Source: a virus
Virus record (IMG/VR): IMGVR_UViG_3300042561_000228
Span: 1 to 33,710 of that record
Strand: one strand, 5' to 3'
Length of the DNA: 33,710 nucleotides
Below the pieces are notes generated by a model. That model did no database searches and was not told where the DNA came from. It saw nothing but the letters and a program-made list of their open reading frames with translations. Numbering within the stretch: position 1 is the stretch's first letter; each line of letters opens with the position of its first letter. Of this stretch, positions 58 through 28,141 are shown piece by piece. A program made the translations under genes and the position numbers.

Positions 58-906
58 TTAGGAGTTAAACAAGTCATCAAATGCTTGTTCTACACTGTCT
101 TTACCTTTAGCTTTAACCGTACTTGGCGACTGTACTGCTTTAACTGAGGGTGTAACCATTGATGGAGTGGTTGGTGCTGTGAATGGAACGTCGTCATCAT
201 CTGTGGGTGATGTAGCTGATGTAGTTGGTACAACAGTTTCAGCTGATTCTGCATCAGGATTCAACCACTTATCCATAACTTCTTTGAGCTCTTCATAAGA
301 AAATTCCGGGAAAAGATCCAAGATGTTAACTTGTGACTTTAGAGCGTCAAGCAACTGTGCGTTTTTTGGATCAATCGCTACACTAACATTTGGCTTAACA
401 CGAATACTTGTTTCTGGGAAACTAGCTCCTCCTTCAGCAGTCTTAAATTCCACGACAATATCACGTCCACCGGTTAGATCAGTAATATCACCAAAGTCAG
501 GATCACTAATGATTGATAGAAGTTCTTGATAAACTTGCTTACCAAATCCCCAGAACTTAACTCCTTCACCTTCTTCGCCACGGACAATTACGGGAGCAAA
601 TGTACGCATCTTGGGTTCCATCTTACGACCCATCTGCCAATCTTCTTTAGAACCAGTCTTCTTCAAGCGGTTACTAAACTCAACAATCGGATCTGGACGA
701 CCAAAACTATCAGGAGATAGATACGTCTTGTTGTTGATGTTGTAATGAAACTTTAGTTCGATAAACGGATTATCAGGTTCATACTTGTATGGAACAATAC
801 GAACTACTTGTTTACCTGGCTTTGGTTTCCAAATCAAGTTGGATTTTTGATTTGTGTTTGAAAGGGAGTTCAAACGACTCTTTAGTTTACTTAGATCTAA
901 TGCCAT
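58..906 (-). CDS. 32: gp32-like single-stranded DNA-binding protein
   Basis: The 282-residue product resembles the T4 gp32 family, which coats single-stranded DNA during replication, recombination and repair. The N-terminus (MALDLSKLKSRLN, then a WKPKPGKQVVRIVPY segment around residues 26-40) matches the start of divergent T4-like gp32 proteins. An OB-fold-like core follows to about residue 200. The C-terminal 65 residues are Ser/Thr/Pro-rich with an acidic DDDDVPF at 236-242 and a terminal AFDDLFNS. The protein has no cysteine, so the Cys/His zinc site of T4 gp32 is absent. It is the last gene before the terminator at 16-45 and the only certain replication gene here apart from the polymerase-like one. 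No Shine-Dalgarno sequence precedes the ATG. The family call is firm. Loss of zinc binding is read directly from the missing cysteines. Confidence 0.9.
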   Translation of the reverse strand: MALDLSKLKSRLNSLSNTNQKSNLIWKPKPGKQVVRIVPYKYEPDNPFIELKFHYNINNKTYLSPDSFGRPDPIVEFSNRLKKTGSKEDWQMGRKMEPKMRTFAPVIVRGEEGEGVKFWGFGKQVYQELLSIISDPDFGDITDLTGGRDIVVEFKTAEGGASFPETSIRVKPNVSVAIDPKNAQLLDALKSQVNILDLFPEFSYEELKEVMDKWLNPDAESAETVVPTTSATSPTDDDDVPFTAPTTPSMVTPSVKAVQSPSTVKAKGKDSVEQAFDDLFNS

Positions 907-1423: not shown

Positions 1424-3741
1424 ATTTTATCAACGACTTCTTTTCCTTCTACACTAAACGTAAACGAACTACCACTACTACTATCTAAACTAAAAACAGA
1501 ATATGTTGGTGTAGCAATATCATCTTTCATAACAATTCCAGCGAATAAATAAAGAGTTACCGTTAAATATCCTTCGTCAACCACCATATTGATTCGGATC
1601 TTACCCAATTTTACATCTTCGAACTCTTTTGGAATTTCTAATTTAAAATTACCTTTATATCTCAACCTTTCAATCTTTTTACCAGTGTATTTGATTAGAG
1701 GTAAACTAACGTTTTTGCCAAATACAGCTTCGGTTGAAAGAAGACTAGATAATTTTATAAATTCTTCACGTATTAAATTAGGATCTGATGTATTTACATC
1801 TTTTAATACATTGTTTAAGATTAAATCTATATACTTAAGTGACAAAACATTAGCTCTGTATTTAAAAATGGGTCTGAGTGTATATCGTTCTAAACAATCT
1901 CCAATTTTAAAATCTCCGTCAATTTGATTTATTACATATATTAGATTTTTTTTCAAATTTTCAATTTGTTGCAATTGTACCGTTTTTATTTCAATTGGAA
2001 AAAATTCAATTAGAAATTTATTGTTTGATAATTCGGAAATTTTGTTAATAAGAGTTATGTCCTCTGTACTTGATTTCAAAATGTTTTTAAATAAATTCAA
2101 ATTTTTATTAATGGTCTCCGTATATTCTGTATGTTTATTATCACATTTCTTACTAGATTTTTCTGAAATAGTACCTATTTCTCTTTCAAGTTGACGCTCT
2201 AAATTTTCTAGATTTTTTAATTCCGAAGATTGTAAAATTTTTACATCCGTATTTAATTTTTTGAAAAAAAAGTTATTTATTTTTGTAGTAAATGGATTTA
2301 TTGCTTTTATGAATGATTGAAAATAATTTTTAGCAATATCTGGTATACTTTTAATTTTATCTATAGCATATTTTATGCTACTTGATATTTTATCAATTAT
2401 TCCTTCACTAAGTGGCACTGGTTCATCCGATGGAGTAGGTGCCAAAGATTGACCAACGTATTGTGCCAATTGAGTTAAAACTCTTCCCAATTTTCCACCA
2501 CCTGCTTTTAAACTAATTAAAGCAAATTTAATATTTTTATCTTTTATTTTAGCCATCGAATCGACATCTTGTTCATCAATATTGCCATCTTTTAAAGCGT
2601 TTAATACATCTGCCTTTGTGCCACCATAAATCAAAACAATGTCTGCGGTATTTGATTTTGTTTCTTGTTCACCTTTTAAAAATTTTCTGTTATAATCATC
2701 GGCTGCTTTATAAAAACTATCTATTGATTTATGAATAAAATCAGTAGGCGTTCCTAATTCCGCTAAAGAAACTCCGTCAAATCCACCAATTTGTTTTAAA
2801 TCTTTATCGACTAAATCGTATAATTTAAGATTTTCTATACGACTGGTTTCGTTTGGTATATTCTCTAATTTTTCTCTTAAATTGCCCCAAGCAGATAAAA
2901 ATCCAATCGCAAAATCGTTGTAATCTTGTCCGGTTTTAGCATTTTTAAAATCAGTAATTCCGTAAGCAAACAAAATAGGTATAGTTTCAAATAATTTAGT
3001 CCGTGTATTATTATCTGCATTTTTTAAGAACTCCAACTTAACCAAAAGTTCTTTGTTTATAATGTCTTTTATTTTTTTTGATTTATCAATATATTTAGCA
3101 GGCGCAATTGCATCAGCTACAATTACGTTTTTAGAAATAGTTTCATCGTATATCTGTTCACCTATTAAATCTCCATTAGTATCAAACCATTTGAATCCTT
3201 TGTTGTAAAATCCATAACTTTTAGCTTCATCTACACTATAATTAACAAGTGGCGTTTGACCTGTTAATATAGCTTCCACTCCCCAAGCATCTTGCTTTTT
3301 CTCAGCTGGTGTTCTTTTGTCTACACCACTATCACCTTCGATATCTTTATCTAATGTTTGATCTAACGTGGCAGGTTGTTTCTTAGATGGTTCTGAATCT
3401 GTTTGTGTATCGACTCCTTGTTCACCATCAGCTTTAAAAATATTAGCTTGAGCCTTTTTGGGATTTTCAGCGAAGTGAGTGCCTTTATTAACAGCTCTAT
3501 CTCTGTATTGTTTATTAGGAAATGTTACAAGTATACCATCTTTATTATATGCTTGTCGATCTGGAAATCTACCCGCTTCAAATAACCTAGCGGTCTTTTC
3601 TACTATCTCATCGATATTATATCCAGCTTTCTCTAGATATTCCTGCAATATAAAAACGTGATCTTCGTTCTTAAGATCCAATACACCGTTCTTAATACGA
3701 TTGTCACAACAAATTTCGTTTACTAATGATTTAAAGTTCAT
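1420..3741 (-). CDS. Large protein of unknown function, possible virion-internal protein
   Basis: The 773-residue product starts MNFKSLVNEI, a short amphipathic leader ending in a V-x-E site, similar to two other proteins in the window and reminiscent of T4 capsid-targeting sequences. Residues about 100-155 are charged, Gln/Thr/Lys-rich and probably disordered. A segment with NTADIVLIYGG at 364-374 and FALISLKAGGG at 407-417 weakly recalls the beta-hairpin of PD-(D/E)XK nucleases, with D367 and K412, but a normal ExK is not visible. A Lys/Asn-rich helical part follows, then a beta-rich C-terminus. The gene starts 5 bases after a TATTTAT element and has a second one further upstream. It overlaps the next gene by four bases. 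I do not recognise the family. A structural or internal virion role is inferred only from its place behind the baseplate genes and from its leader. Confidence 0.8.
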   Translation of the reverse strand: MNFKSLVNEICCDNRIKNGVLDLKNEDHVFILQEYLEKAGYNIDEIVEKTARLFEAGRFPDRQAYNKDGILVTFPNKQYRDRAVNKGTHFAENPKKAQANIFKADGEQGVDTQTDSEPSKKQPATLDQTLDKDIEGDSGVDKRTPAEKKQDAWGVEAILTGQTPLVNYSVDEAKSYGFYNKGFKWFDTNGDLIGEQIYDETISKNVIVADAIAPAKYIDKSKKIKDIINKELLVKLEFLKNADNNTRTKLFETIPILFAYGITDFKNAKTGQDYNDFAIGFLSAWGNLREKLENIPNETSRIENLKLYDLVDKDLKQIGGFDGVSLAELGTPTDFIHKSIDSFYKAADDYNRKFLKGEQETKSNTADIVLIYGGTKADVLNALKDGNIDEQDVDSMAKIKDKNIKFALISLKAGGGKLGRVLTQLAQYVGQSLAPTPSDEPVPLSEGIIDKISSSIKYAIDKIKSIPDIAKNYFQSFIKAINPFTTKINNFFFKKLNTDVKILQSSELKNLENLERQLEREIGTISEKSSKKCDNKHTEYTETINKNLNLFKNILKSSTEDITLINKISELSNNKFLIEFFPIEIKTVQLQQIENLKKNLIYVINQIDGDFKIGDCLERYTLRPIFKYRANVLSLKYIDLILNNVLKDVNTSDPNLIREEFIKLSSLLSTEAVFGKNVSLPLIKYTGKKIERLRYKGNFKLEIPKEFEDVKLGKIRINMVVDEGYLTVTLYLFAGIVMKDDIATPTYSVFSLDSSSGSSFTFSVEGKEVVDKI

Positions 3742-11276: not shown

Positions 11277-14200
11277 TTAATTGGTTGTTGCTTGACCAAA
11301 TGAACCAAATTTTGAGTTACTTGTTGCTAATAATTGATTTGCACGTTGACCATCAATATACACAGCAATTTGACCAGATGCCATCATAGAAGTCAATTTA
11401 TCAAGTTTTTCTGCTAAAACTCTATTGGAATTTACAATTGTATTGATCAATAAATCATCAGTTTTTACACTTGTTTTTGATTCAGTCGCAGTTTTTGATG
11501 GAGTTTCTTCTGATGTTCCGACTATTCTACCAACAAAACTAAAAGTTTTTCCTATTGTATCAGATATAAATGAACCAATACCTTTCATTTTTTCCCATAC
11601 TTTTTCAAGAGCACCAATAATAAAAGTAAAAGCTCCACTGAATGTGTCTTTGAGAAAAGTACCAACTTCAGATACAGCAGACTTTATTAGTTCAAATCCT
11701 TTTTTAAATGGATATGTAATCAAATCAAACATCACATCCATTACGGATTTGAAAGCATCAACAAATGTTGTTTTTAAAATATTTATAATCTCTGGTATAA
11801 TTTGAGCGGCTTTTTTAAATGGATATGTAAGTACATCAAATAACATATCTACTACAGATTTAATACCATCAACAATCGCTAAACCGATTTCGGATGGAGA
11901 TTTACCACCCAATTTATCCATTACCCAATTATATACCAATTCAAATGGCCATTTAAGTATAGTATATAAAGTGTCTGCTACAGATGCAATACCGTCAGCG
12001 ATTGCGTTCAGTCCAAAAGCTTTCAAAATTAACAATCCTAATTTTCCCACTGTTTTAGCTATAGCTATAGGCAATTTAACAAAGTGAAATACAATAATTT
12101 CAATTGCTAATCTTCCAATATTTGCAAAAATTTTACCCCATTCAATTCCCCCACCGCCACCACTAAATAACTCTTCTATTTTATCAGGCAAACTCGTTAG
12201 TGCGTCTAATAAAAAGTTGGTTACGTCTTTAAATATTCCCGCAAAATCTATATCGGCTAAAAACGACGGTATCTTTTTAAGAAAATCCCAAACCATTTTT
12301 AATGGTTCTACAACCAAAGCATTAACTACAGCTTTTAATCCAGCTACTGCTTTTTGACTCACGGTACCTGTCGTTTCATTAAATGCTTTAAAAAACGCTA
12401 TGCCACCTTGAATCACAGATACAACTAGTCCTATTGGTCCTAAAAATTTAGCTACTGCTCCAAAAATCGGAGCGAGTTTTGAAAAAAACCCAATGCCAGT
12501 ACCAAGTTTGCCAAATATTCCACCCACAAAACTTCCAATTCCTTTTACCGAACTACCTAGTCCACTAAATACGTTTGAGATAATATTTCCAATTTTTGAA
12601 ATTGCTGGAAATTTTGTAAATACTTTTTCAATATTCATTCCGATATTAAAAACGCTATTTGAAAGTTTTGTTAATTGTGTAGATCCTTTTCCGATAAAAT
12701 TAGATATGGATTGAAATCCCGTACCAAATCCTTTTAATGTATCTGATGCTGATTTTAGTCCACTTGCGATCTTTTCTATTTTTAACGAAATATTTACTAT
12801 CGTGTTTATGATACCCGATGTACTCGTTGACCACCCAATAAAAATACTTGATATTTTTAGCGCCGATGATAAAAATTGTGAAGAATAAGTAATTAATTTT
12901 CCAAATCCACTTGTCATTTTTCCTATCCCACCCAATATATTTGATACTATAGATAAACTTTTAAACATCATATATAGTTTACCCACTTCTTGTGCAAATT
13001 TTTTGATTTCTTCTCGGTTATCTTTTATATATTTTAATAACTGTGTAAATATTGGTCCAATTTCTTCCAATATAGGCCCAATAAATTCCATAAAAATTGC
13101 ATTAATTTCATTTTGCAACTGTTTCATTCTGGTTTGATTTTTTTCTTGAATCAACCCTTTTTCATATTCGGCTTGAGCAGCTTTTTTAGCAGCAATAGGA
13201 TCGTTCTTCATCATTTCCGCCATTTGCTTTTTCTTCTCTGCTTCGGCTCTTACCAATGGATCTTTTGATTTTAATGCTTCTTTCAGATTTTCTTCAGCAT
13301 TTAACATTTCTTGCAATTCTTTTACAGTCTTACCAGCAGCTTTTGCAAACGCGTCTTGTGCAATTGGATTTAACTGATTGAACTTAATTTTCTTAGCTTG
13401 ATCCAATATTAATTTATTTGCCCCAATAATATCGCCTTGAAATGCCAATCTGCGAGCTTCATTAAAATTAATATTTTTACCAATCAATGCACTAGCTTTT
13501 AATTCTGATTGAATACTACTTTCAAAGTCAAGCAAACCCTTTGCAGTTTTTGCCATATTGTCAAGAGTAGTACCCATTTGTCTAGCTTGAGCTGCAGCTC
13601 TAACCATTTCATCTGCATTTTTACCAGCAAACATTCTAGCTTCTTCAGATGCATTTGCGACATCGTTCATTACATCGTCCAACCCAACTCCATAAGCATT
13701 TGCAGCAAATTTTGCCAATCCCAACATATTTTGTTTGGCTATTGCACTTTTTCCAGATACGCCACCTAACGTTTGTAGAAACTTAACACTTGTTTCAGAA
13801 GCTACTCCAAATTGAGCAGACATTATTGAAACATCTTTAACCAATCCTTTTTCCATAGATTGCAAACTTGTAAAAGTTGAACCTATTTGTTTCATTGTTC
13901 CGCCAAGTTGTTCAGCGTTTATACCAAACTCAGCTAACTCAATAGAAGCTTCTCGTATGTTTTTTTCAAAAATTGCACCCTGACTTGGTAATAGTCCAAA
14001 TTTTTGTCTAACATTTGTAGCAGCGGTGTCAATTTGATTAAAAACGTCTAATATTCTTTCAAAAGTACCAGCTAATGTGGTGGGTATATTTAGTTTAGTT
14101 GCTAAACCCGAAGCCAAATCACCCATCTTGTTTAACAACTTTACACCCATCTCCAATGCTTTGTTATATAAATCTATTAACTCGTTTGCTGCTTTTAGTA

Positions 14201-14684
14201 AAAAATTATGTAGTTTTAACGATTCTAACTTGGAAGCACTGTTTTTCAATAAATGTTCTTCCAAATTCAACTCGGTTGATTTTTTATTAATTAAATCTTG
14301 TAAAGCTATAACAGTATCGCTGGTAGGATCTTTACTTTGCTCTACTAGAAGTTCAGCTGCGTTTGTCAATAATTCATTTTGTAAACTCTCTATTTTTATG
14401 TAACTGTTGATACGTGCCTGTGCAAATTCATTTAACTTTTTTTCAGAATTTACAAATTTTGATGATAATTTTTCTTGTAAACTTTTTCCTTTTAACTGTT
14501 CATCAAGCTTATCTTTTTGTGTTTTATATGCCTGTCCTAACTGTTTGGCTATATCAACCATTCTTTTCTCGGTATCAACTATCTTGTCTAGATTAGACAG
14601 AGTATCTTTGATTTCAGCGTTTAAATTATTAAACGCCTCTACTAGTTTATCCGCTGTTGCTTTATCAAATGGTTGTGCTGCCAT
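11277..14684 (-). CDS. 29: Tail tape measure protein (gp29-like)
   Basis: The 1135-residue product has the layout of a tape measure protein, which sets tail length and is ejected ahead of DNA. The first 180 residues are a charged coiled coil (EAFNNLNAEIKDTLSNLDKI onward). A helical region with repeated Ala/Gln/Lys (about 230-560) follows. The remainder contains many hydrophobic and Gly/Phe-rich stretches with repeating FKKG/FKK and DVLTYPFKK / DLITYPFKK units around residues 965-1030. It is the longest non-repeat gene in the tail cluster and directly follows the gp26/gp51-like chaperone frames, as in most tailed phages. At roughly 0.15 nm per residue its length predicts a tail of about 170 nm, which is a rule-of-thumb inference. 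T4 gp29 is about half this length. Confidence 0.85.
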   Translation of the reverse strand: MAAQPFDKATADKLVEAFNNLNAEIKDTLSNLDKIVDTEKRMVDIAKQLGQAYKTQKDKLDEQLKGKSLQEKLSSKFVNSEKKLNEFAQARINSYIKIESLQNELLTNAAELLVEQSKDPTSDTVIALQDLINKKSTELNLEEHLLKNSASKLESLKLHNFLLKAANELIDLYNKALEMGVKLLNKMGDLASGLATKLNIPTTLAGTFERILDVFNQIDTAATNVRQKFGLLPSQGAIFEKNIREASIELAEFGINAEQLGGTMKQIGSTFTSLQSMEKGLVKDVSIMSAQFGVASETSVKFLQTLGGVSGKSAIAKQNMLGLAKFAANAYGVGLDDVMNDVANASEEARMFAGKNADEMVRAAAQARQMGTTLDNMAKTAKGLLDFESSIQSELKASALIGKNINFNEARRLAFQGDIIGANKLILDQAKKIKFNQLNPIAQDAFAKAAGKTVKELQEMLNAEENLKEALKSKDPLVRAEAEKKKQMAEMMKNDPIAAKKAAQAEYEKGLIQEKNQTRMKQLQNEINAIFMEFIGPILEEIGPIFTQLLKYIKDNREEIKKFAQEVGKLYMMFKSLSIVSNILGGIGKMTSGFGKLITYSSQFLSSALKISSIFIGWSTSTSGIINTIVNISLKIEKIASGLKSASDTLKGFGTGFQSISNFIGKGSTQLTKLSNSVFNIGMNIEKVFTKFPAISKIGNIISNVFSGLGSSVKGIGSFVGGIFGKLGTGIGFFSKLAPIFGAVAKFLGPIGLVVSVIQGGIAFFKAFNETTGTVSQKAVAGLKAVVNALVVEPLKMVWDFLKKIPSFLADIDFAGIFKDVTNFLLDALTSLPDKIEELFSGGGGGIEWGKIFANIGRLAIEIIVFHFVKLPIAIAKTVGKLGLLILKAFGLNAIADGIASVADTLYTILKWPFELVYNWVMDKLGGKSPSEIGLAIVDGIKSVVDMLFDVLTYPFKKAAQIIPEIINILKTTFVDAFKSVMDVMFDLITYPFKKGFELIKSAVSEVGTFLKDTFSGAFTFIIGALEKVWEKMKGIGSFISDTIGKTFSFVGRIVGTSEETPSKTATESKTSVKTDDLLINTIVNSNRVLAEKLDKLTSMMASGQIAVYIDGQRANQLLATSNSKFGSFGQATTN

Positions 14685-14719: not shown

Positions 14720-14932
14720 CTAAAAAGGCTTATCTACTTTACCTGACTTTTTAGCAGGTTCTTTGTAACTATCACTTTCTTTATTCTTTATATTTGCTAA
14801 TTGAGCATAGTAAAAATTACGTAAAAATACAGGTAAATTATACGCAATTTGTACATTTACCGCTCCTTGCGAGAAATAACTCAATTCAAATATTTGACCG
14901 TGAACTTGTAACTTATATTCAGGACTCAGGCC
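14720..14932 (-). CDS. gp51-like second frame, probable frameshift extension of the gp26-like protein
   Basis: After the T7 run, the +1 frame stays open for 70 codons and stops with TAG at 14720-14722. The translation begins GLSPEYKLQVHGQIFELSYF, continues through NLPVFLRNFYYAQLAN, and ends in a Lys/Pro-rich tail (KKSGKVDKPF). This resembles the short helical protein that follows gp26 in T4-like phages (gp51, hub assembly). No ATG or GTG occurs in this frame between its upstream stop (a TGA about 17 bases before the T7 run) and its own stop, and only CTG and TTG codons could serve as starts. Synthesis as a fusion with the gp26-like protein, giving a product of 340 residues, is therefore the simplest reading. 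The gene ends 35 bases before the tape measure start. A homopolymer error in the assembly would give the same appearance. Confidence 0.75.
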   Translation of the reverse strand, partial: GLSPEYKLQVHGQIFELSYFSQGAVNVQIAYNLPVFLRNFYYAQLANIKNKESDSYKEPAKKSGKVDKPF

Positions 14933-15743
14933 AAAAAAACTGTACCGTCATCGGTACATCCATCCTTTCCACCTCACCACAGTGTTCACATACAAAGTCA
15001 AAACCCATATCCAATTCAGGCGCAATTGTTTTAATATAAGCTCTTAGTGCCATACTGTCTTTTGACAACAACTCATTGTCAACAAATTTATTGATAGATG
15101 CAATATCTGGTTTTCCATCTATACTTACAATCAGCTTTTTAAGTCTGGTAGTTACTTCTGTACTGGCTTGTTTTTTGATCTTGGTCATCGCTTTAATATC
15201 ACGATCAATGCTTTCTTGATCACCAGATGTAACAAGTTTAAATGTTATTCTACGTTTACAATATGGAAACTCAAATTCAAATTCATTACTACCCTTCTGA
15301 AACTTATTGAAGTCCACTTCTTTTTCATTTAATGTACTTAAATCAATATATGTTTTGTTTTCGGTATTACATTTTTTGCACTCAATTTTTACAGGCCCGT
15401 ATTTGTCACCATATGCCAAACGTCTAGCAGCAACAAACAGTGCATTTTTGTCTACCATCAACAAATCTTGTGTTCTTACGCCGGGCGTAACAATTAAAGA
15501 TTCAAGCAATTTATCCAATACAGTACCGTTTTTGATGAAGTTTTCATTGGTTAAAATGTCTTCTTCTCTAGCAGTCATCATCTTTAATTCCACACTACCT
15601 TTGCTTAGTGGACTAGACTCATCATAGAAATATCCTTTAGATGGCAATTCTATTGTTTCCGCAGGATAACTTGTAGGTGCAGCTGTTGTTGATGCAGTTG
15701 AATGTTGTTGCTTTAATTTTTGAATTATAATTTCGTCACTCAT
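14919..15743 (-). CDS. 26: gp26-like baseplate hub / tail assembly chaperone
   Basis: The 274-residue product matches the T4-like gp26 pattern: a conserved LPSKGYFYDESSPLSKGSVE at 33-52, MMTAREEDILTNENFIKNG at 55-73, then DKLLESLIV and KNALFVAARRLAYG at 99-112. Two CxxC pairs follow (C122/C125 and C252/C255), suggesting a bound metal. The reading frame ends VQFFWPES just after a run of seven T. The second frame, described separately, continues from there. By its place before the tape measure gene it corresponds to the G or gp41-type chaperones of other phages, of which a minority are made with a frameshift extension. The start ATG at 15743 has no Shine-Dalgarno sequence. The call as gp26-like is firm. 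Its exact activity in this phage is inferred. Confidence 0.85.
   Translation of the reverse strand: MSDEIIIQKLKQQHSTASTTAAPTSYPAETIELPSKGYFYDESSPLSKGSVELKMMTAREEDILTNENFIKNGTVLDKLLESLIVTPGVRTQDLLMVDKNALFVAARRLAYGDKYGPVKIECKKCNTENKTYIDLSTLNEKEVDFNKFQKGSNEFEFEFPYCKRRITFKLVTSGDQESIDRDIKAMTKIKKQASTEVTTRLKKLIVSIDGKPDIASINKFVDNELLSKDSMALRAYIKTIAPELDMGFDFVCEHCGEVERMDVPMTVQFFWPES
14933..14939 (-). promoter_or_regulatory. Candidate programmed frameshift slippery site (T7)
   Basis: In the coding sense the sequence is CAG TTT TTT TGG in the gp26 frame. A tRNA-Phe in the P site on the second TTT can slip one base forward and pair again with TTT, with the Trp codon TGG waiting in the A site. This leads straight into GGC and the second frame. 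A -2 shift or transcript slippage on the T run would have the same effect. No downstream stem was established by eye. Confidence 0.65.
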
Positions 15744-15792: not shown

Positions 15793-16695
15793 TTAGGTAT
15801 TTAATTGATGTTGAGCAGCATCACGAGCGGCTGTTTTACTGTCTACTGCATCTTTTTTGTTTTTTACACGTAGTTCAGCCGCAGCTTTTTCTTCGGGGGT
15901 AGTTGCAGCTTTTAAATCGTCATTTGCTTTTGTAAGTTCTTGTTGTGCCGCATCAAGTTCAACGGTACGAAGAACCAATCCAGCTTGATTATACTTTTTT
16001 CTTGCAGAATTTATTTTAGCTTCGTCTTCTTTCATTATACCCACAATCAATTTCTTTAATAACTTCTTTTGTTTTTCGGTTAATTTACCAGTAATTTTAC
16101 CCAATTTATTGTTTAATATATTATGAACATTTGTATTGTAATTACCAAACAAATCGATAATAAAAGCCTTTTGTTGTTCTGGGGTTAATGTAGCATATTG
16201 AGATCTTAATTGACTTGCACTTCTAGCCGGTAACCCTAGTACTGTAAAATCTACAGTTGGTACTGTTATCAAGTATCCGTGTTTTATGGCTGGGTCTAAT
16301 TTGGATTGATTTTTTGGCAATGGCTGTAAATAAGAAGGAGATCCATCTTTTTTTACAAAGTTTTTGAATCTTGGATCTTCAATCATATCCTTTTCACTAA
16401 CTGCAAAAATAATAATATCACGTTCTATATTGATTGGTATTTGATTAGCTACACTTTTCAAGTTGTAGTTGTTTTTGACGTTTAGTATTTTGTTTGCCGG
16501 TATACCTGTGGTAATCATCATTTGCATTTTTTCATTGAAAGTAAATGGTGATTTTGGCAATTTTGTAACACCTGTGGTTGTTATGTATACATCATTACCA
16601 CCAAATTTAGTGGTTAGGTAGTTGTATACACTTTTGTGACCTTTGTGAAAGGGATGAAATCTACCAGGATAAATTACGAATATTTTCTTGCCCAT
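15793..16695 (-). CDS. HxGH-type nucleotidyl/cytidylyltransferase-like protein with coiled C-terminus
   Basis: Near the N-terminus the product has YPGRFHPFHKGHKSVYNYL, the nucleotide-binding HxGH motif of the nicotinamide/pantetheine/glycerol-3-phosphate cytidylyltransferase superfamily. A later SASQLRSQY resembles the second superfamily motif (ISSTxxR) that contacts triphosphate. The catalytic domain spans about residues 1-190. The rest (about 110 residues) is highly charged, Ala/Lys/Glu-rich, and likely a coiled coil. The open frame extends upstream to a GTG at 16725, but that GTG lies within the terminator stem, so I use ATG at 16693-16695. ATG at 16699-16701 is equally possible. The substrate is not identifiable from sequence. 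It sits between the tail tube and the gp26-like gene, an odd place for a nucleotide enzyme, and might be carried in the virion or act on a virion part; that is speculation. Confidence 0.8.
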   Translation of the reverse strand: MGKKIFVIYPGRFHPFHKGHKSVYNYLTTKFGGNDVYITTTGVTKLPKSPFTFNEKMQMMITTGIPANKILNVKNNYNLKSVANQIPINIERDIIIFAVSEKDMIEDPRFKNFVKKDGSPSYLQPLPKNQSKLDPAIKHGYLITVPTVDFTVLGLPARSASQLRSQYATLTPEQQKAFIIDLFGNYNTNVHNILNNKLGKITGKLTEKQKKLLKKLIVGIMKEDEAKINSARKKYNQAGLVLRTVELDAAQQELTKANDDLKAATTPEEKAAAELRVKNKKDAVDSKTAARDAAQHQLNT

Positions 16696-16707
16696 TTGCA
16701 TATAGTA

Positions 16708-16714
16708 ATAAATA
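16708..16714 (-). promoter_or_regulatory. TATTTAT element after the tube terminator
   Basis: In the minus sense TATTTAT directly follows the T-rich exit of the terminator at 16718-16741 and ends six bases before ATG at 16701. Its position, where transcription would need to restart, supports a promoter role for this element. Confidence 0.45.
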
Positions 16715-16717
16715 GAA

Positions 16718-16741
16718 AACCCCACAAATAAATGTGGGGTT
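16718..16741. terminator. Intrinsic terminator after the tail tube gene
   Basis: A perfect 9-bp stem (AACCCCACA with TGTGGGGTT) closes a 6-base A/T loop. The minus sense continues TTCTATTTATT and the plus sense continues CTTTTTGAT, so the hairpin could work in both directions. It begins about 20 bases after the tube stop codon and probably ends a short tail tube transcript. Confidence 0.8.
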
Positions 16742-16760: not shown

Positions 16761-17252
16761 TTAATATTGGAGAATTGCGTAATCGTATGCTACAGATAAA
16801 CTGATCATCTGAGCAGCACCGTCATCGCTCCAATCCATTTCTTGGAAATCAGCGCTTACGATAAATGAACCTACCAACTTCCATTCTTCTACTTTGTCAC
16901 CTACTGGACCCAAGACGTTAATTGTTAGATCCTTCTTATAGAAGTCTTGGTAACCATCACGACCAGTAACTGATTCGTGGTGCAAACGTACCCATTCCAT
17001 TACTGCTTGAGCACCGGATGGTACAATTGGATCATAAAGTTCCATACTGATTTCATCCCATACACTTTTACCCTTGTAGTAGGTTTTTACGTTAATATGG
17101 TCAAGTTCCTTCTTGGCTTGTGTTAGTTTAGGACGATTGACCTTTTTGATGATGAATGATGGAATACCATCAACATAAAGAATAAAACGATTCTTTACTT
17201 TTGGTTCGAATGCCGTAGCGAATATTTCACTTGGATTTAGTAGTTCTGCCAT
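16761..17252 (-). CDS. 19: Tail tube protein (gp19-like)
   Basis: The 163-residue product is close to the length of T4 gp19 (163) and carries the family pattern: an N-terminal FEPKVKNRFILYVDGIPSFI at 16-35, then VNRPKL, a charged VKTYYKGKSVWDEISMELYDP segment, MEWVRLHHESVTGRDGY, KDLTINVLGP, and VSADFQEMDWSDDGAA before the final strand. Stacked hexamers of this protein form the inner tube through which DNA passes. The gene has an AAGG Shine-Dalgarno-like site seven bases before the ATG, the best such site in the window, with a TATTTAT element 24 bases upstream and a strong terminator behind the stop. It is flanked by two enzyme genes rather than by the sheath gene gp18, which is outside the window. 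Confidence in the family is high. Confidence 0.95.
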   Translation of the reverse strand: MAELLNPSEIFATAFEPKVKNRFILYVDGIPSFIIKKVNRPKLTQAKKELDHINVKTYYKGKSVWDEISMELYDPIVPSGAQAVMEWVRLHHESVTGRDGYQDFYKKDLTINVLGPVGDKVEEWKLVGSFIVSADFQEMDWSDDGAAQMISLSVAYDYAILQY

Positions 17253-17315: not shown

Positions 17316-18479
17316 TCATTTACTCAAATTTTTATCTGTAATATTTGTGATAGCATTTTTTAGTTGATTGACGTAACCTGTGGATCTTAAAAGTTTAAAC
17401 ACCAAATTTTCTGTACTATACTCGCCGCTCTTACTTAATCCAGCTTCTCTCATTTCATACAAACGTTTAACTAAACGCTTTAATTTATCTAAATTTTGTT
17501 CTTTTATAGCTGTGGAAATAAACGAAACATATTGTTTGTATTTCTTTGTAATAGCATCTTTATCAATCTGAATGTCTTCTATTTTTGGCTTTTTTACCCA
17601 TTCATTTTTCATCAAACTATATACAGCTTGACTTCTATTGACCTCTTTAATATCTTGAATGTAAACTTCCACTGGATGATTGCCAATTCTAATGTTGTGG
17701 TTTTCATTCCATTTGCTTTTTAAGCCATCCACATAATTCTTAACCAGTTCTTCATTTGGATCAATTTTGGAAAAATCTACAACCAAATGTAAGTCAATAT
17801 CACTTGTTGGTGTCCAATTATATCCGGCAGTACTACCAAGAAAGTATATATTTTCAAGAGGTACATTCAAATCAGTATCTTTGTAAAAAGTATTTGCAAT
17901 AGTTAATAACTTGTTTAATACATCAGGTTTAATAGCATTTTCAGTAGCCCATATCTCAGGATTTAAAATGCTATTATAAATTCTATGAGATTCTTTGATA
18001 CCCAACATTTCTTTTAGTTTATTAATTGTATCTATTGCGCTTTTATGCAATATTGCTTTACCACCAGCTTTGATAAAATCATTTACATTATCTTCACGGT
18101 CATCTATCAAAATACTATCAGGAGTTGCAAACTTTGCTTTTAAATTTCTATGCGGTACCAAATTAGCTTTAATATCAATATTGTTATTGGCTAACCACTG
18201 CTTTTTACCAACATATGCCAAATTGGTAGGCGCATGACTCAATATCTCTACAGGCAAATTTGATACAAAATTATAAAGCAATCTGCCATCTTTCATCCAA
18301 GGCATACTAGAATAGTATTCAGGACAATTCTTATCTACAAACTTAAATCTATTCTTTTTACCGTGTTCAGCATCATAAGTTTCAACAGGTACACCACCAC
18401 TATATCGCTTGAATTGCAATTCCCAATCACTTATCACACCATCCATATCCAAATATATTTTATGTTTATTAGTAATCAT
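17316..18479 (-). CDS. HAD-type phosphatase fused to a Pol-beta-type nucleotidyltransferase
   Basis: The 387-residue product joins two domains. Residues 8-165 form an HAD-type phosphatase: motif I YLDMDGVISDW with D11 and D13, then SHAPT near 81-85 as a motif II-like site, and ILIDDREDN at 123-131 with D126/D127 as motif IV. This arrangement resembles 5'(3')-deoxyribonucleotidases. Residues 170-300 form a Pol-beta-superfamily nucleotidyltransferase: LGSTAGYNWTPTSDIDLHLVVD at 214-235, with the G-S and D-x-D (D227, D229) signature, and a likely third acid at VEVYIQD (E271). A helical C-terminus completes the protein. The combination could pair removal of a terminal phosphate with nucleotide transfer, but the substrate is unknown. 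A sigma70-like promoter and a leader of about 100 bases lie upstream, and a TATTTAT element ends five bases before the ATG. Confidence 0.8.
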   Translation of the reverse strand: MITNKHKIYLDMDGVISDWELQFKRYSGGVPVETYDAEHGKKNRFKFVDKNCPEYYSSMPWMKDGRLLYNFVSNLPVEILSHAPTNLAYVGKKQWLANNNIDIKANLVPHRNLKAKFATPDSILIDDREDNVNDFIKAGGKAILHKSAIDTINKLKEMLGIKESHRIYNSILNPEIWATENAIKPDVLNKLLTIANTFYKDTDLNVPLENIYFLGSTAGYNWTPTSDIDLHLVVDFSKIDPNEELVKNYVDGLKSKWNENHNIRIGNHPVEVYIQDIKEVNRSQAVYSLMKNEWVKKPKIEDIQIDKDAITKKYKQYVSFISTAIKEQNLDKLKRLVKRLYEMREAGLSKSGEYSTENLVFKLLRSTGYVNQLKNAITNITDKNLSK

Positions 18480-22132: not shown

Positions 22133-25100
22133 TTATTTATTTATCAATCGATTTATTGTTATTTGTTGTTCATCAACTATCTGCTTCAATTCTTTAACAC
22201 CCTGTATCAATACAGCTGTCAATTTACTATAATTTATACCAGATATATTACCCAACTCATCATAACTAACAAATTCAGGATATATCTTCACAACCTCTTC
22301 AGCTATCAAACCAATACTAAATTCATTGTTGTTCTTATACCTAAATGTCACCGGATTCAATAACACAATCTTGTCCAATTGCGGCGGCAATAAAGGCATA
22401 ATATCCGTTTTAGTATTTTCACTAGACGTTTCTATCAATGTAGTAGCACTAACAGTTCCAACAACTGTTAATGTAGTACCATCCACACTTAAAAAATTAA
22501 CACTCTGTAACGTAGTAAGACCAGTAGTTTTTACCAAATAATTAGGCTGATCAGTAAAACTACCACCACTAATTCCACTGGTACCACTAGGAGCACTAAT
22601 ACCACTAGTGCCACTCGTACCACTGCTACCACTAGTTCCACTTATACCACTACTTCCACTACTAGCACTAGCACCTCCACCAGCACTTACACCACTTGTT
22701 CCACTTGTACCAACAGTACCACTACTACCACTCGTTCCGCTTGTGCCACTCGTACCACTGCTACCACTTGTTCCACTGGTTCCATTTCGACCACTTGTGC
22801 CACTGCTACCACTTGTTCCGCTCGTTCCACTTGTGCCACTTGTTCCGTTTGTTCCACTTGTTCCGTTTTGACCGCTACTACCACTTGTGCCGCTCGTTCC
22901 ACTACTACCACTTGTACCACTACTACCACTTGTGGCACTATTACCGCTGCTACCACTATCACGACTAAATCCGCTTGTACCACTACTTCCACTTGTACCA
23001 CTGGTTCCGCTTGTACCACTTGTACCACTGGTTCCATTTCGACCACTCGTACCACTTGTACCACTTGTACCACTGCTACCACTACTACCACTACTACCAC
23101 TGGTTCCGCTTGTGCCACTAGTACCGCTTGTTCCGTTTTGACCGCTGCTACCACTTGTTCCACTTGTACCGCTACTACCACTTGTACCACTACTACCACT
23201 TGTGGCACTATTACCGCTGCTACCACTATCACGACTAAATCCGCTTGTACCACTGCTACCACTAGTACCACTTGTTCCGCTTGTTCCGCTTGTGCCACTT
23301 GTACCACTGGTTCCATTTCTACCACTGCTACCACTAATACCACTGCTACCACTGCTACCACTAGTTCCACTTGTTCCGCTAGTGCCACTCGTTCCATTTG
23401 TTCCGCTTGTTCCGTTTTGACCACTGCTACCACTTGTTCCACTTGTACCGCTACTACCACTTGTACCACTACTACCACTTGTGGCACTATTACCACTGCT
23501 ACCACTATCACGACTAAATCCGCTTGTACCACTGCTACCACTAGTACCACTGGTACCACTTGTTCCGCTTGTTCCACTGGTGCCATTTGATCCGCTTATA
23601 CCACTTGTACCACTAGTACCATTAGTACCACTGCTACCACTTGATCCACTTGTTCCACTTGTGCCACTAGTACCATTTGTACCATTTGACCCACTTATAC
23701 CACTTGTTCCACTCGTTCCACTGGTACCATTTGATCCACTCGTACCACTAGTGCCACTGGTACCACTGCTCCCACTTGATCCACTTGTTCCGCTTGTGCC
23801 ACTAGTACCATTTGACCCACTTGATCCACTTGTACCACTTGATCCACTTGACCCACTTGATCCACTTGACCCACTTGACCCACTTGATCCACTTGATCCA
23901 CTTACACCAGACGATCCGCTACTACCACTAGTACCGCTTGTGCCACTAGTACCATTTGACCCACTTATACCACTTGTGCCACTTGATCCATTACTGCCGC
24001 TTGTTCCACTTGTTCCGCTTGTGCCACTAGTACCACTTGATCCGCTTGTACCACTTGTGCCACTGCTACCACTGGTACCATTAGATCCACTTGTACCGCT
24101 TGTGCCACTAGTACCATTTGTACCACTTGTACCGTTAGATCCACTTGATCCGCTAGTACCAGACGATCCGCTACTACCACTTGTACCGTTTGATCCGCTT
24201 ATACCACTTGTGCCACTTGTACCACTGGTGCCGTTTGTTCCACTGCTACCACTTATACCAGACGATCCGCTACTACCACTTGTACCGTTGGATCCACTTG
24301 TGCCACTTGTACCGTTAGATCCGCTTGTACCGTTAGATCCGCTTGTACCACTTGATCCACTTGATCCGCTTGTGCCACTTGATCCACTTGATCCACTTGA
24401 CCCACTGGTGCCGTTCGATCCGCTTGTACCACTTGTGCCACTTGATCCACTTGACCCACTTATACCAGACGATCCGCTACTACCACTAGTACCGCTTGTA
24501 CCACTAGTACCACTAGTACCACTAGTACCACTTGTACCGTTAGATCCACTTGTGCCACTAGTACCACTGCTTCCACTTGTGCCACTGCTTCCATTTGATC
24601 CACTTGTACCACTACTACCACTTGTACCACTTGTACCACTACTGCCACTTGTACCGTTGGATCCACTTGTGCCACTAGTACCACTGCTTCCACTTGATCC
24701 ACTTGATTCACTTACGCCACTGGTGCCGCTTGTTCCATTTGTACCACTGCTGCCACTTATACCAGAAGATCCACTACTACCACTTGTGCCACTTGTGCCA
24801 TTAGATCCACTTGTACCGCTTGATCCATTTGACCCACTTGTACCGCTTGATCCACTTGACCCACTTGTACCATTTGATCCACTTGACCCACTTGTACCAC
24901 TTGTGCCGCTTGTACCACTTGTGCCATTAGATCCACTTGTTCCACTAGTACCGCTTGTGCCATTAGATCCGCTCGTACCACTAGTACCACTAGTGCCGCT
25001 TGTGCCGCTTGTGCCATTTGATCCACTAGTACCACTTGATCCACTACTACCACTTGTACCGCTTGTGCCACTAGTACCGCTTGTACCACTTGTGCCACTA

Positions 25101-28100
25101 GTACCGCTTGTACCACTTGTGCCGTTTGATCCGCTTGTACCACTTGTGCCGTTTGATCCGCTTGTTCCACTTATACCAGATGATCCACTAGTACCACTTG
25201 TGCCACTAGTACCACTTGTGCCACTAGTACCACTAGTACCGCTTGTTCCACTACTACCGCTTGTACCGTTTGACCCACTTGTTCCACTTGTACCATTAGA
25301 TCCGCTTGTTCCAGATGATCCACTTGTTCCACTAGTACCACTTGTTCCACTACTACCAGATGTACCACTTGTACCGTTAGTACCGTTAGTACCATTAGTA
25401 CCATTTGATCCGCTTGTGCCATTTGATCCACTACTACCACTTGTTCCACTACTACCGCTTGTGCCACTCGTTCCACTACTACCACTTATACCAGAAGATC
25501 CACTGCTACCACTTGTACCGCTTGTGCCATTAGATCCACTTGTTCCAGATGATCCACTACTACCGCTTGTGCCACTACTACCGCTTGTACCATTAGATCC
25601 ACTTGTACCACTTGTGCCACTTGTGCCACTGGTACCATTTGATCCACTACTACCGCTTGTACCATTAGATCCGCTTGTACCAGATGATCCACTACTACCG
25701 CTTGATCCGCTTGTACCAGATGATCCACTTGATCCACTTAATCCACTTGAACCACTTGAACCACTAGTACCGTTTGTACCGCTTGTACCACTAGTACCGT
25801 TTGATCCACTAGTACCACTACTGCCACTTGATCCGCTTGAACCACTTGAACCACTTGATCCACTTGATCCACTTGTACCGCTAGTACCACTTGATCCGCT
25901 TGTACCACTTGTGCCACTGCTACCACTGGTACCGTTAGATCCGCTAGTACCACTTGTTCCATTAGATCCACTTGTACCGGATGATCCACTTGATCCGCTA
26001 GTACCAGACGATCCACTTGATCCGCTAGTACCGGACGATCCACTTGTTCCATTCGTTCCATTGGATCCGCTGGTACCAGATGATCCACTTGATCCGCTAG
26101 TACCAGATGATCCACTTGAACCGCTTAATCCACTTGATCCACTTGATCCACTCGATCCACTAGTACCGCTTGTACCACTAGTACCGCTTGTACCACTAGT
26201 ACCACTTGTGCCATTAGATCCACTTGTGCCGTTTGATCCGCTAGTACCACTTGTGCCATTTGATCCACTTGTTCCACTACTACCACTTGTACCACTTGTT
26301 CCACTACTACCACTTGTACCGCTTGTACCACTCGTTCCACTTGTACCATTTGATCCACTTGTGCCATTTGTGCCGTTAGATCCGCTTGTACCATTTGATC
26401 CACTAGTACCACTTGATCCACTTGATCCACTTGTGCCGCTAGTACCACTTGTGCCGCTAGTACCACTTGTGCCGCTAGTACCACTTGTGCCGTTTGTGCC
26501 ATTAGATCCACTTGTTCCGCTACTGCCAGACGATCCGCTAGTACCAGATGAACCACTTGAACCACTTAACCCACTTGAACCACTTGAACCACTTGATCCG
26601 CTAGTACCGCTTGTACCACTTGTTCCGCTAGTACCACTGGTACCATTTGTACCACTGGTACCATTTGTTCCATTAGATCCACTTGATCCACTTGACCCAC
26701 TTGACCCACTTGACCCACTTGATCCACTTGTACCACTGGTACCACTTGTACCGCTAGTGCCGCTTGTACCACTAGTGCCATTTGTACCATTAGTGCCGTT
26801 TGTACCATTTGATCCACTTGACCCACTTGATCCACTTGATCCACTAGTACCGCTTGTACCGCTTGTACCACTTGTACCACTTGTTCCGCTTGTACCACTA
26901 GTACCGCTTGTACCACTTGTGCCGCTTGTACCACTGGTGCCATTTGTCCCATTACTACCGGATGATCCACTATTACCAGATGATCCACTTGTACCGCTTG
27001 TACCACTTGTACCACTTGTTCCACTAGTACCACTTGTGCCACTGGTGCCATTTGTGCCGCTTGTGCCGTTTGAACCACTGCTTCCACTTATACCAGATGT
27101 GCCACTTGTGCCACTAGATCCGCTCGATCCACTTGACCCACTGGTACCACTCGTACCACTAGTACCACTGGTGCCACTAGATCCGCTTGTACCACTTGTA
27201 CCACTTGATCCACTTGTACCACTTGATCCGCTGCTACCACTTGTACCACTTGATCCATTTGTACCACTTGTGCCACTAGATCCGCTTGTACCACTGGTGC
27301 CACTGCTACCACTAGTACCGTTTGTGCCACTTGTACCACTGGTACCACTTGTACCACTAGTACCACTTGTTCCGCTACTACCACTTGTTCCGCTGCTTCC
27401 ACTGGTGCCTGATCTACCGCTTGATCCTCTTGTGCCACTTGTGCCGGTTGTACCGCTTGTAGTACTTGTACCACTTGATCCGCTTGATCCATCTAATAAA
27501 CCACTACTACCGCTTGTACCACTGCTTCCATTTTCTCCACTAGTTCCACTGGTTCCTATATCGCCACTTTGACCGCTACTACCACCCTCACCATTTGTAC
27601 CGCTTGTGCCTTGACTACCACTGGTACCTGAAGATGTGCTTGTACCGCTTGTGCCGCTTGTATTGCTTGTTCCGCTTGATCCAGCTGATCCTTTTTCTCC
27701 GCTACTACCACTACTACCACTGGTGCCTGTGCCTGAAGTACCACTGGTGCTGATATTACCGCTTACACCTATGATGTATCCGCATGCATCAAACGAAAAA
27801 GTTATGGTTGCGGTATTATCATTATTGAGTACTATTGTTTCTGGTATTAATTGATTGAAATTCTCGTCGTATGTTTGAATTAATACTAGATCTGAGTTTA
27901 AATTATGATCAAATACCCAAGTTTTTGATTTTTGATCGCATGGTATTTGTTTAGTAGCAACATTGTTGAAAAACTGAGAACTGGTTCGACAATAAATAAT
28001 TTTACGTAATTCGTCGATTATTTTAAGAAACAGCTCTGTGGTAGGATCTTTAAAAGTCGCTGTTAATTTTTTATAATCATACAGAGCATTATCCAATTTT

Positions 28101-28141
28101 ATTGGAGAAACCTCGCATGGATCTTTCTTTAATGTTGACAT
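22133..28141 (-). CDS. Giant collagen-like fibre with C-terminal S74 chaperone domain
   Basis: The 2002-residue product has three parts. Residues 1-130 form a compact N-terminal domain (KTWVFDHNLNSDLVLIQTYD onward) probably used for attachment. Residues about 131-1860 are Gly-X-Y repeats, mainly GTS, GSS and GTN/GSN triplets with almost no proline. Residues 1861-2002 carry a peptidase S74 intramolecular chaperone: SSENTKTDI, where the first Ser and the Lys five positions later fit the catalytic pair, then FSIGLIAEEVVKIYPEFV, and a final coiled coil (LIQGVKELKQIVDEQQITIN). S74 domains trimerise the fibre and then cut themselves off. If fully triple-helical, the repeat would span about 0.5 micrometres at 0.29 nm per residue. 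It begins five bases after a TATTTAT element, and the next fibre gene follows at once. Confidence 0.85.
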   Translation of the reverse strand: MSTLKKDPCEVSPIKLDNALYDYKKLTATFKDPTTELFLKIIDELRKIIYCRTSSQFFNNVATKQIPCDQKSKTWVFDHNLNSDLVLIQTYDENFNQLIPETIVLNNDNTATITFSFDACGYIIGVSGNISTSGTSGTGTSGSSGSSGEKGSAGSSGTSNTSGTSGTSTSSGTSGSQGTSGTNGEGGSSGQSGDIGTSGTSGENGSSGTSGSSGLLDGSSGSSGTSTTSGTTGTSGTRGSSGRSGTSGSSGTSGSSGTSGTSGTSGTSGTSGTNGTSGSSGTSGTSGSSGTSGTNGSSGTSGSSGSSGTSGSSGTSGTSGSSGTSGTSGTSGTSGSSGSSGSSGTSGTSGISGSSGSNGTSGTNGTSGTSGTSGTSGTSGTSGTSGSSGNSGSSGSNGTNGTSGTSGTSGTSGTSGTSGTSGTSGTSGTSGTSGSSGSSGSSGSNGTNGTNGTNGTSGTSGTSGTSGTSGTSGSSGSSGSSGSSGSSGSNGTNGTSGTNGTSGTSGTSGTSGTSGSSGSSGSSGLSGSSGSSGTSGSSGSSGTSGSNGTNGTSGTSGTSGTSGTSGTSGTSGSSGSSGTSGSNGTSGSNGTNGTSGSNGTSGTSGTSGTSGSSGTSGTSGSSGTSGSNGTSGTSGSNGTSGSNGTSGTSGTSGTSGTSGTSGSSGSSGSSGLSGSSGSSGTSGSSGSSGTSGSNGTNGTSGSSGTSGSSGSSGTSGSSGSSGTSGSNGTSGTSGSNGTSGSSGTSGTSGSSGTSGTSGSSGSSGSSGSSGSSGSSGTSGSNGTSGTSGTNGTSGSSGSSGLSGSSGSSGTSGSSGSSGSSGTSGSNGTSGSSGSNGTSGTSGTSGTSGSNGTSGSSGTSGSSGSSGTSGSNGTSGTSGSSGSSGISGSSGTSGTSGSSGTSGSSGSNGTSGSNGTNGTNGTNGTSGTSGSSGTSGTSGTSGSSGTSGSNGTSGTSGSNGTSGSSGTSGTSGTSGTSGTSGTSGTSGSSGISGTSGSNGTSGTSGSNGTSGTSGTSGTSGTSGTSGTSGTSGSSGSSGTSGSNGTSGTSGTSGTSGTSGSNGTSGTSGTSGSNGTSGTSGTSGTSGSSGSNGTSGSSGSSGTSGSNGSSGTSGSNGTSGTSGSSGSSGISGSSGTNGTSGTSGVSESSGSSGSSGTSGTSGSNGTSGSSGTSGTSGSSGTSGSNGSSGTSGSSGTSGTSGSNGTSGTSGTSGTSGTSGTSGSSGSSGISGSSGSSGTSGTSGSNGTSGSSGSSGSSGTSGSSGSSGTSGSNGTSGSNGTSGTSGSNGTSGSSGSSGISGSSGTNGTSGTSGTSGISGSNGTSGSSGSSGTSGSSGSNGTSGTNGTSGTSGTSGSNGTSGSSGTSGTSGSSGTSGTSGTSGTSGSNGSSGTSGISGSNGTSGTSGTSGSSGSSGVSGSSGSSGSSGSSGSSGSSGSSGTSGSSGSNGTSGTSGTSGSSGSSGTSGTSGTSGSNGTSGTSGTSGISGSNGTNGTSGTSGTSGSSGSSGTNGTSGTSGISGSNGTSGTSGTSGTSGTSGSSGTSGFSRDSGSSGNSATSGSSGTSGSSGTSGTSGSSGQNGTSGTNGTSGTSGTSGTSGSSGSSGISGSSGRNGTSGTSGTSGTSGTSGTSGSSGTSGFSRDSGSSGNSATSGSSGTSGSSGTSGTSGSSGQNGTSGTSGTSGTSGSSGSSGSSGTSGTSGTSGRNGTSGTSGTSGTSGTSGSSGTSGFSRDSGSSGNSATSGSSGTSGSSGTSGTSGSSGQNGTSGTNGTSGTSGTSGTSGSSGTSGRNGTSGTSGSSGTSGTSGTSGSSGTVGTSGTSGVSAGGGASASSGSSGISGTSGSSGTSGTSGISAPSGTSGISGGSFTDQPNYLVKTTGLTTLQSVNFLSVDGTTLTVVGTVSATTLIETSSENTKTDIMPLLPPQLDKIVLLNPVTFRYKNNNEFSIGLIAEEVVKIYPEFVSYDELGNISGINYSKLTAVLIQGVKELKQIVDEQQITINRLINK
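22562..27750 (-). repeat. 5.2-kb block of 9-base Gly-X-Y codon repeats
   Basis: The block consists of near-continuous repeats of 9 bases, or of nearly equivalent triplet pairs, on the plus strand of the type CCACTTGTA, CCGCTTGTA and CCACTTGAT. It encodes about 1730 residues of (Gly-X-Y). Because the period is a multiple of three and the units lack stops, several other frames stay open over kilobases. One interruption is visible near 24707, where GVSESSG replaces a Gly with Glu. Confidence 0.95.
22863..23541 (-). repeat. Higher-order repeat of 270-279 bp within the collagen-like block
   Basis: The rare string CCGTTTTGACC recurs at about 22863, 23133 and 23412, and the string TACCACTATCACGACTAAATCCG recurs at about 22951, 23221 and 23500. 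The spacings are 270 and 279 bases, both multiples of nine. In the protein this is three copies of a unit containing GFSRDSGSSGNSATSG. It indicates recent duplication of a 30-31-triplet unit. Confidence 0.9.

Follow-up and report, generated by a model that had tools for sequence, protein, structure and literature searches.

In phage lambda, the tail assembly chaperone gpG is accompanied by a longer form, gpGT, which arises through a -1 frameshift, and the pair is characterized by the fixed ratio of its two products, by binding of the tape measure and tube proteins, and by absence from the virion. Phage Mu uses a -2 shift at its tail chaperone gene. Frameshifting is reportedly conserved in several T4-like groups in the account of Vladimirov and colleagues, with T4 itself said to use genes 26 and 51.

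The direction of the shift is not the same in all described systems. The T4-like chaperones (gp26 short, gp51 long) belong to the family PF12322, and the excerpts of two papers that discuss them ascribe them to -1 polyT signals, or to two separate genes in some phages (Vladimirov, Gautam and Davidson, 2022, via PMC10885494 and PMC12846349). A passage of PMC5009743 describes the G-T frameshift as widely conserved "except T4" and calls that of HSTV-2 very likely +1, while a passage of PMC7230728 predicts a +1 shift with TTT-CGC in HF1-group haloviruses and cites a UUU_CGN +1 motif in some eukaryotic RNA viruses. Outside of tails, the release factor gene prfB (RF2) shifts by +1 at CUU_UGA, and an excerpt of PMC10885494 names CUU as the RF2 slip codon, with CCC and UUU the next most slippery in that context.

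The locus described here lies in a window of 33,710 nucleotides (the whole of virus record IMGVR_UViG_3300042561_000228). Judged from sequence, it very probably encodes two tail assembly chaperones of the lambda G/GT type in a T4-like phage, with the long form produced by programmed +1 ribosomal frameshifting. It shares with the T4-like chaperones of the cited excerpts the PF12322 family, the place before the tape measure gene and the logic of two products, but those shift by -1, whereas a +1 shift is needed in the window and in 143 scored loci. Lambda likewise differs in direction (-1 against +1); the lambda pair is defined by the behavior of its proteins, and the pair in the window is predicted from its genes. 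In the passages on the HF1-group and HSTV-2 haloarchaeal myoviruses, the predicted chaperone shift is +1, the direction proposed for the window, but these are archaeal viruses and the window site is TTT TGG.

The locus on the minus strand

An earlier reading of this DNA, referred to below as the preliminary description, had the 0 frame ending soon after CAG TTT TTT TGG and a +1 frame continuing for 70 codons without ATG or GTG; its coordinates and counts are correct. The features are as follows.

16761-17252, minus strand: tail tube gene, upstream context of the tail module (phrog_4542 tail tube, E 2.8e-25)
14919-15743, minus strand: gp26-like 0-frame gene, the putative short tail assembly chaperone (TAC-N, G-like), 274 aa, ending VQFFWPES before the stop
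14948-14950, minus strand: upstream TGA closing the +1 frame, which limits the position of the shift
14931-14942, minus strand: shift site CAG TTT TTT TGG, followed by CCT GAG TCC TGA (three sense codons and a stop)
14936-14934, minus strand: proposed P-site TTT, which would re-pair one base further along (14935-14933), so that GGC (14932-14930) is read next
14919-14921, minus strand: 0-frame stop TGA, end of the short form
14720-14932, minus strand: +1-frame C-terminal domain (TAC-C, T-like), 70 codons (14932-14723) with its stop at 14722-14720
11277-14684, minus strand: gene for the tape measure protein (1135 aa), matching phrog_5493 (tail length tape measure) at E 4.8e-7

The 0-frame gene, whose C-terminal end reads VPMTVQFFWPES before the stop, matches the family profile of the short form, PF12322 (T4_baseplate), with an E-value of 9.3e-12 and 45.5 bits (cut-off 24.5). 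It also matches the baseplate hub family phrog_150 (E 8.7e-14), with the profile matched up to position 233 of 282. Downstream, a gap of 35 bases separates the +1-frame stop from the start of the tape measure reading frame, which follows directly. Since the TGA at 14950-14948 closes the +1 frame, the shift is confined to a short overlap and earlier +1-frame starts are excluded. Within the +1 frame of the window there is no ATG or GTG, and its single TTG is the 17th codon.

Several neighboring genes were characterized in passing. Between the tail tube and chaperone genes, 15793-16725 (minus strand) encodes a protein whose N-terminal domain is cytidylyltransferase-like (PF01467, E 8.9e-6), an odd location for an enzyme, and 17316-18479 (minus strand), adjoining the tail tube gene, encodes a 5'-3' deoxyribonucleotidase-like protein (phrog_2643). 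At one end of the window, 58-906 (minus strand) encodes a single-strand DNA binding protein resembling gp32 (PF08804). The collagen-like tail fibre gene at 22133-28141 (minus strand, 2002 aa) has about 5 kb of its coding sequence in repeats of 9 or 18 bases, and its repeat keeps open an antisense frame of 1363 aa (23481-27572) that is probably a by-product of codon bias.

Composition of the proposed slip site

According to the proposed mechanism, most ribosomes would end at the 0-frame stop to give TAC-N (274 aa), and we infer that in a minority the Phe-tRNA on the second TTT slips one base forward to the TTT that overlaps it, with TGG in the A site awaiting decoding. Reading would then resume at GGC, so that VQFF is followed by GLSPEYK, and skipping this one base gives a fused product, TAC-NC, of 340 aa with a C-terminal domain of 70 residues. 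The predicted +1 junction peptide of the window is MDVPMTVQFFGLSPEYK, and the corresponding tryptic peptide in Flavobacterium phage immuto is FFPEDGPDGGVDIPIGVSFLGLTPEYR. Other outcomes in the window would instead yield MDVPMTVQFFFGLSPEYK (a -2 shift), MDVPMTVQFFWPESEYK (a shift at UCC_UGA) or MDVPMTVQFFWPES (the unshifted end).

The site was compared across 98 distinct +1 junctions, of which 96 were tabulated for the A site and 85 form the main class. Because a separate site finder admitted no second codon other than TTT or CTT, the site figures were counted from the unrestricted junction listing; probabilities computed with that finder were set aside for the same reason, and because related loci do not count as independent. 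The proposed P-site codon is near-invariant: TTT in 86 of the 98, CTT in 9, and TTA, CTA and TTC in one each. The other Phe codons of the same genes comprise 779 TTT and 229 TTC. Looking at the two codons before the A site together, 80 of 98 junctions have TTT TTT, while the second is CTT in 9 and the first is TTC in 5. TGG occupies the A site in 72 of the 96, TAC in 13, CGN in 8, and some other sense codon in 3. The window, with its TTT TTT TGG, has a YUU_U site; TTT or CTT followed by T is present in 84 of 98 junctions, and a further 8 have TTT followed by CGN (CGT, CGA, CGC or CGG), an arrangement seen again in several loci that were read by eye. This is the TTT CGN of the eukaryotic RNA viruses in the cited excerpt, but in another kind of virus and gene, which speaks for convergence only. 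Overall, a P-site slip at the second codon (UUU to UUU or UUC, CUU to UUU) fits 93 of the 98 junctions. The 0-frame stop lies 3 to 7 codons past the A-site codon in the 85 main junctions, and in 9 junctions the overlap of the two frames measures just 20 bases with the T run inside.

The landing frame of a +1 shift could also be reached by a ribosomal shift of -2, with the second Phe-tRNA re-pairing two bases back to give VQFFFGLSPEYK rather than VQFFGLSPEYK. The seven T of the window would allow perfect re-pairing in this direction too, and Mu provides the precedent at this gene. The test comes from the 5 of 98 junctions that have TTC ahead of TTT, with loci L237, L243, L252 and L253 alike. 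On TTC TTT, a -2 shift puts the Phe-tRNA on TCT with a mismatch at the middle base, whereas a +1 shift puts it on TTT or TTC, so that the -2 shift is disfavored and we consider it unlikely.

Less likely again is transcriptional slippage, in which RNA polymerase would drop one U on the T7 run in some transcripts. Such a run of seven T is indeed present in the window and in many relatives, but the +1 offset is kept in junctions where it is broken to three or four T, including those of immuto and Streptococcus phage GXN1. These interrupted runs are TTT CTT TGG (9 of 98), TTC TTT TGG (2 of 98) and TTC TTT CGN (3 of 98), and the existence of TTT CTT TGG, TTC TTT TGG and TTC TTT CGT argues against transcriptional slippage because a run of seven T is not needed.

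A programmed +1 slip of the P-site tRNA, the preferred reading, has a close mechanistic counterpart in RF2. There too a single P-site tRNA slips on YUU_U, and CTT_TGG is found in 9 of the 98 junctions. However, RF2 has a stop codon in the A site, whereas junctions of the window type have a sense codon there and the stop later. RF2 also has an upstream Shine-Dalgarno stimulator, and in this case no enrichment was found, with a Shine-Dalgarno core within 24 bases upstream in 9 of the 85 main junctions as against 49 of 340 control stretches. Downstream folding, scored at 40 junctions (every second of the 85), was no stronger than in control stretches made by simple base shuffles. With no stimulator found, the efficiency of the shift could be low.

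The ideal YUU_Y site is not kept in the divergent members L246, L255, L052, L222 and L249-L251. In L246, L255 and L249-L251 the +1 offset occurs without it, at TTA TTT AAT CCC AGT, CTA TTC AAT CCC AGT or TTA TTC AAT CCC AGT, and CCC_A may be the slippery codon in these loci.

Selection on the second frame and conservation of the offset

Information content across the 85 aligned main-class junctions keeps to the 0-frame phase until the T run is reached and has the +1-frame phase beyond it. Past the 0-frame stop, pN/pS is 0.146 in the +1 frame (51 pairs) versus 1.36 and 2.70 in the other two (53 and 53 pairs), and the first, second and third positions of +1-frame codons carry 241, 100 and 563 substitutions (45 pairs), all of these figures being descriptive, as the pairs among relatives are not independent. 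On these patterns, the +1 frame is under strong protein selection.

A protein under selection could still be the product of a separate small gene, translated by reinitiation, as it is annotated in some relatives. Microcystis phage Mel-JY01 has an annotated coding sequence in the +1 frame with a TTG start, KVP40 and Synechococcus phage Bellamy have separate annotated ORFs with ATG, and 44 of 96 junctions contain some ATG, GTG or TTG in the +1 frame, which would make initiation possible in some phages. The window, though, has neither ATG nor GTG in this frame, and 50 of 98 junctions have no ATG, GTG or TTG at all from the upstream stop to a point 30 bases beyond the end of the 0 frame. Only 4 of 96 have a start, each time TTG, that is preceded by a Shine-Dalgarno core. 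Moreover, it is the T run, rather than a start codon, that marks where selection in the +1 frame sets in. The preliminary description had given homologues with an ATG and ribosome site of their own in the second frame as grounds for rejecting its proposal; no conserved start was found in the relatives, and a separate gene is a decidedly improbable explanation.

A shift within the overlap could also take place a few codons later. Antizyme genes shift at UCC_UGA, and the window and its close relatives end in GAG TCC TGA, as this would require. However, the T run persists even though the codon that precedes the stop is variable and a stop is missing at this place in several relatives (GCC GGA AGA TAA). 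The GGC CTN codons ahead of it already evolve as codons of the +1 frame: the dipeptide after the shift is GL in 71 of the 85 main junctions, TL in 13 and GQ in one (GL or TL in 84 of 85), whereas the 0-frame residue after Pro is of ten kinds. This constancy indicates that the frame has already changed by that point, and a later shift at UCC_UGA carries very little probability.

With the +1 slip at the T run retained as the preferred reading, the offset was followed through related viruses. A protein search of IMG/VR gave 48 loci with 47-100% identity and matches reaching the end of the gene; 2 of them lack the 3' end, and L024 ends at a contig edge shortly past the junction. The same +1 offset, which the preliminary description had proposed to look for in homologues, was found in 46 of the 46 loci containing the junction, down to 47% identity. 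A DNA scan for CAG and GGCCTGA separated by six, seven or eight T gave at least 120 stretches, some on contigs shared with the 48-locus set. A C-domain profile identified 98 of these as homologues, and 22 unrelated ones were dropped. Among the matches listed, all 98 homologues have exactly seven T and none has the six that would give a single continuous frame.

A wider set of 298 loci was scored with a C-domain profile built from ten +1-class sequences. The domain was found in 177 of them, in the +1 frame in 143, in the -1 frame in 34 and in frame in none. The 121 loci without a profile match comprise the window itself, T4, KVP40, 82 loci of cyanophage or KVP40 type and 36 others. When these 36 were read by eye, 25 were readable, with 14 in +1, 11 in -1 and none in frame; the remainder are 6 in which no 0-frame ORF was found, 4 cut at the junction, and RM378, for which the wrong ORF had been picked and which was separately read as +1. 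Six isolates have the +1 offset, at these sites.

Flavobacterium phage immuto: TTT CTT TGG
Microcystis phage Mel-JY01: TTT TTT TGG
Streptococcus phage GXN1: TTC TTT CGT
Listeria phage LIS04: TTT TTT AGT
Bacillus phage SP-15: TTT TTT CAC
Rhodothermus phage RM378: TTT TTT TGG

A surplus T, hiding one continuous frame, had been named in the preliminary description as the main alternative. Homopolymers are error-prone, and the window is a virus record that by its neighbors comes from metagenomes, but such an error is scarcely credible given the same offset in 46 of 46 loci, seven T in all 98 homologues among the matches listed, and isolate genomes that show the offset with interrupted T runs. The +1 skip site recurs in well over a hundred sequences of related viruses and is, to all appearances, genuine rather than a sequencing artifact. 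The proposal that a programmed +1 shift precedes the tape measure gene gains strength from this conservation, from the change of coding phase that occurs at the T run, and from isolates in which the frames are arranged alike.

One locus, L240, is irregular (about 2229-2400): its C-terminal frame starts in +1 after TTT TTT CGT, is then interrupted, and homologous reading resumes in another frame, which reflects either a sequencing error or a broken copy.

Relation to T4 gp26 and gp51 and the direction of the shift

T4 gp26 matches phrog_150 to position 235 of 282, while T4 gp51 matches it to 280 and also matches phrog_634, so that gp51 looks like gp26 with a C-terminal domain added. The link from the window to this domain is a chain of profile matches. 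A domain of the window type aligns with that of the -1 class with an hhalign probability of 94.9% (E 4.4e-8), and the cyanophage domain in turn matches phrog_634 (1.5e-28) and positions 231-281 of phrog_150 (1.9e-5). Through this chain the downstream frame is linked to the C-terminal domain of T4 gp51. Directly, no PHROG was matched by the C-terminal domain of the window or by that of one relative, a search of solved structures gave no match (best E 0.13), and a profile of the fused family aligned with T4 gp51 in the zinc-ribbon part alone (11.7%), with nothing aligned beyond that part in either gp26 or gp51. The two forms would act on the tape measure protein as lambda gpG and gpGT do, by analogy with that pair.

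The order of a gp51-like frame after gp26, which the preliminary description had attributed to T4-type phages, holds in KVP40 and cyanophage Bellamy but not in T4, where genes 26 and 51 lie on opposite strands. For KVP40, Bellamy and four jumbo phages, the heptamer is T TTT TTC or T TTT TTT and the C-terminal domain follows in the -1 frame. Among the 82 loci of cyanophage or KVP40 type (L065-L146), 85 ORFs end in FF followed by 1 to 12 residues; 82 of these 85 carry T TTT TTC, with a -1 frame that stays open for at least 43 codons. In the cyanophage and KVP40 loci (L065-L144, L059 and L064) the heptamer T TTT TTC is kept, although in those listed the downstream frame also has a nearby ATG, and frameshift fusion and a separate small protein are therefore both possible there.

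A tree of the 0-frame proteins (82 rows) places all +1 members on one branch, with support of 92/55 only and with the RM378, T4 and KVP40 proteins on long branches, and the sole -1 member inside it is L054. This locus (LR756511, about 3695-3715) has the -1 heptamer T TTT TTC among +1 relatives, a possible reversal of shift direction. At least two changes of direction are needed on this tree.

Taken together, we think it likely that a large T4-like lineage, with members that infect Bacteroidota, cyanobacteria and Firmicutes, uses a +1 shift at YUU_U or UUU_CGN to produce its long tail chaperone, with neither an upstream Shine-Dalgarno sequence nor a downstream hairpin. In the same homologous gene and at the same Phe-Phe codon pair, the direction would have changed at least twice between +1 and -1, and the T4 group would have given up frameshifting in favor of two paralogous genes. 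The preliminary description considered a +1 shift or T-run slippage in a T4-like phage to be notable. This stands for the +1 form; a run of seven T is not needed, and frameshifting of T4-like chaperones had already been published in the work cited above, which leaves only the +1 form as candidate novelty. The portions of the open-access literature consulted contain no statement of a +1 tail chaperone frameshift in T4-like phages, and from the sequences compared here the +1 form, as well as a change of direction within one gene family, look new.

A long chaperone of this kind is easily misannotated. In immuto (L050, 4827-4937) and SP-15 (L057, 3321-3440), the annotation presents the last part of the C-terminal domain as a separate, tiny hypothetical protein whose end is the +1-frame stop, and in GXN1 the region of the domain carries no annotation. 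In the gp26/gp51 homologues a single short site comes in many natural forms (TTT TTT TGG, TTT CTT TGG and TTC TTT CGT), which offers a means to learn what drives a forward slip in bacteria without a stop codon or a Shine-Dalgarno stimulator, and the homologues suggest that the direction of a shift can change while the logic of the protein is kept.
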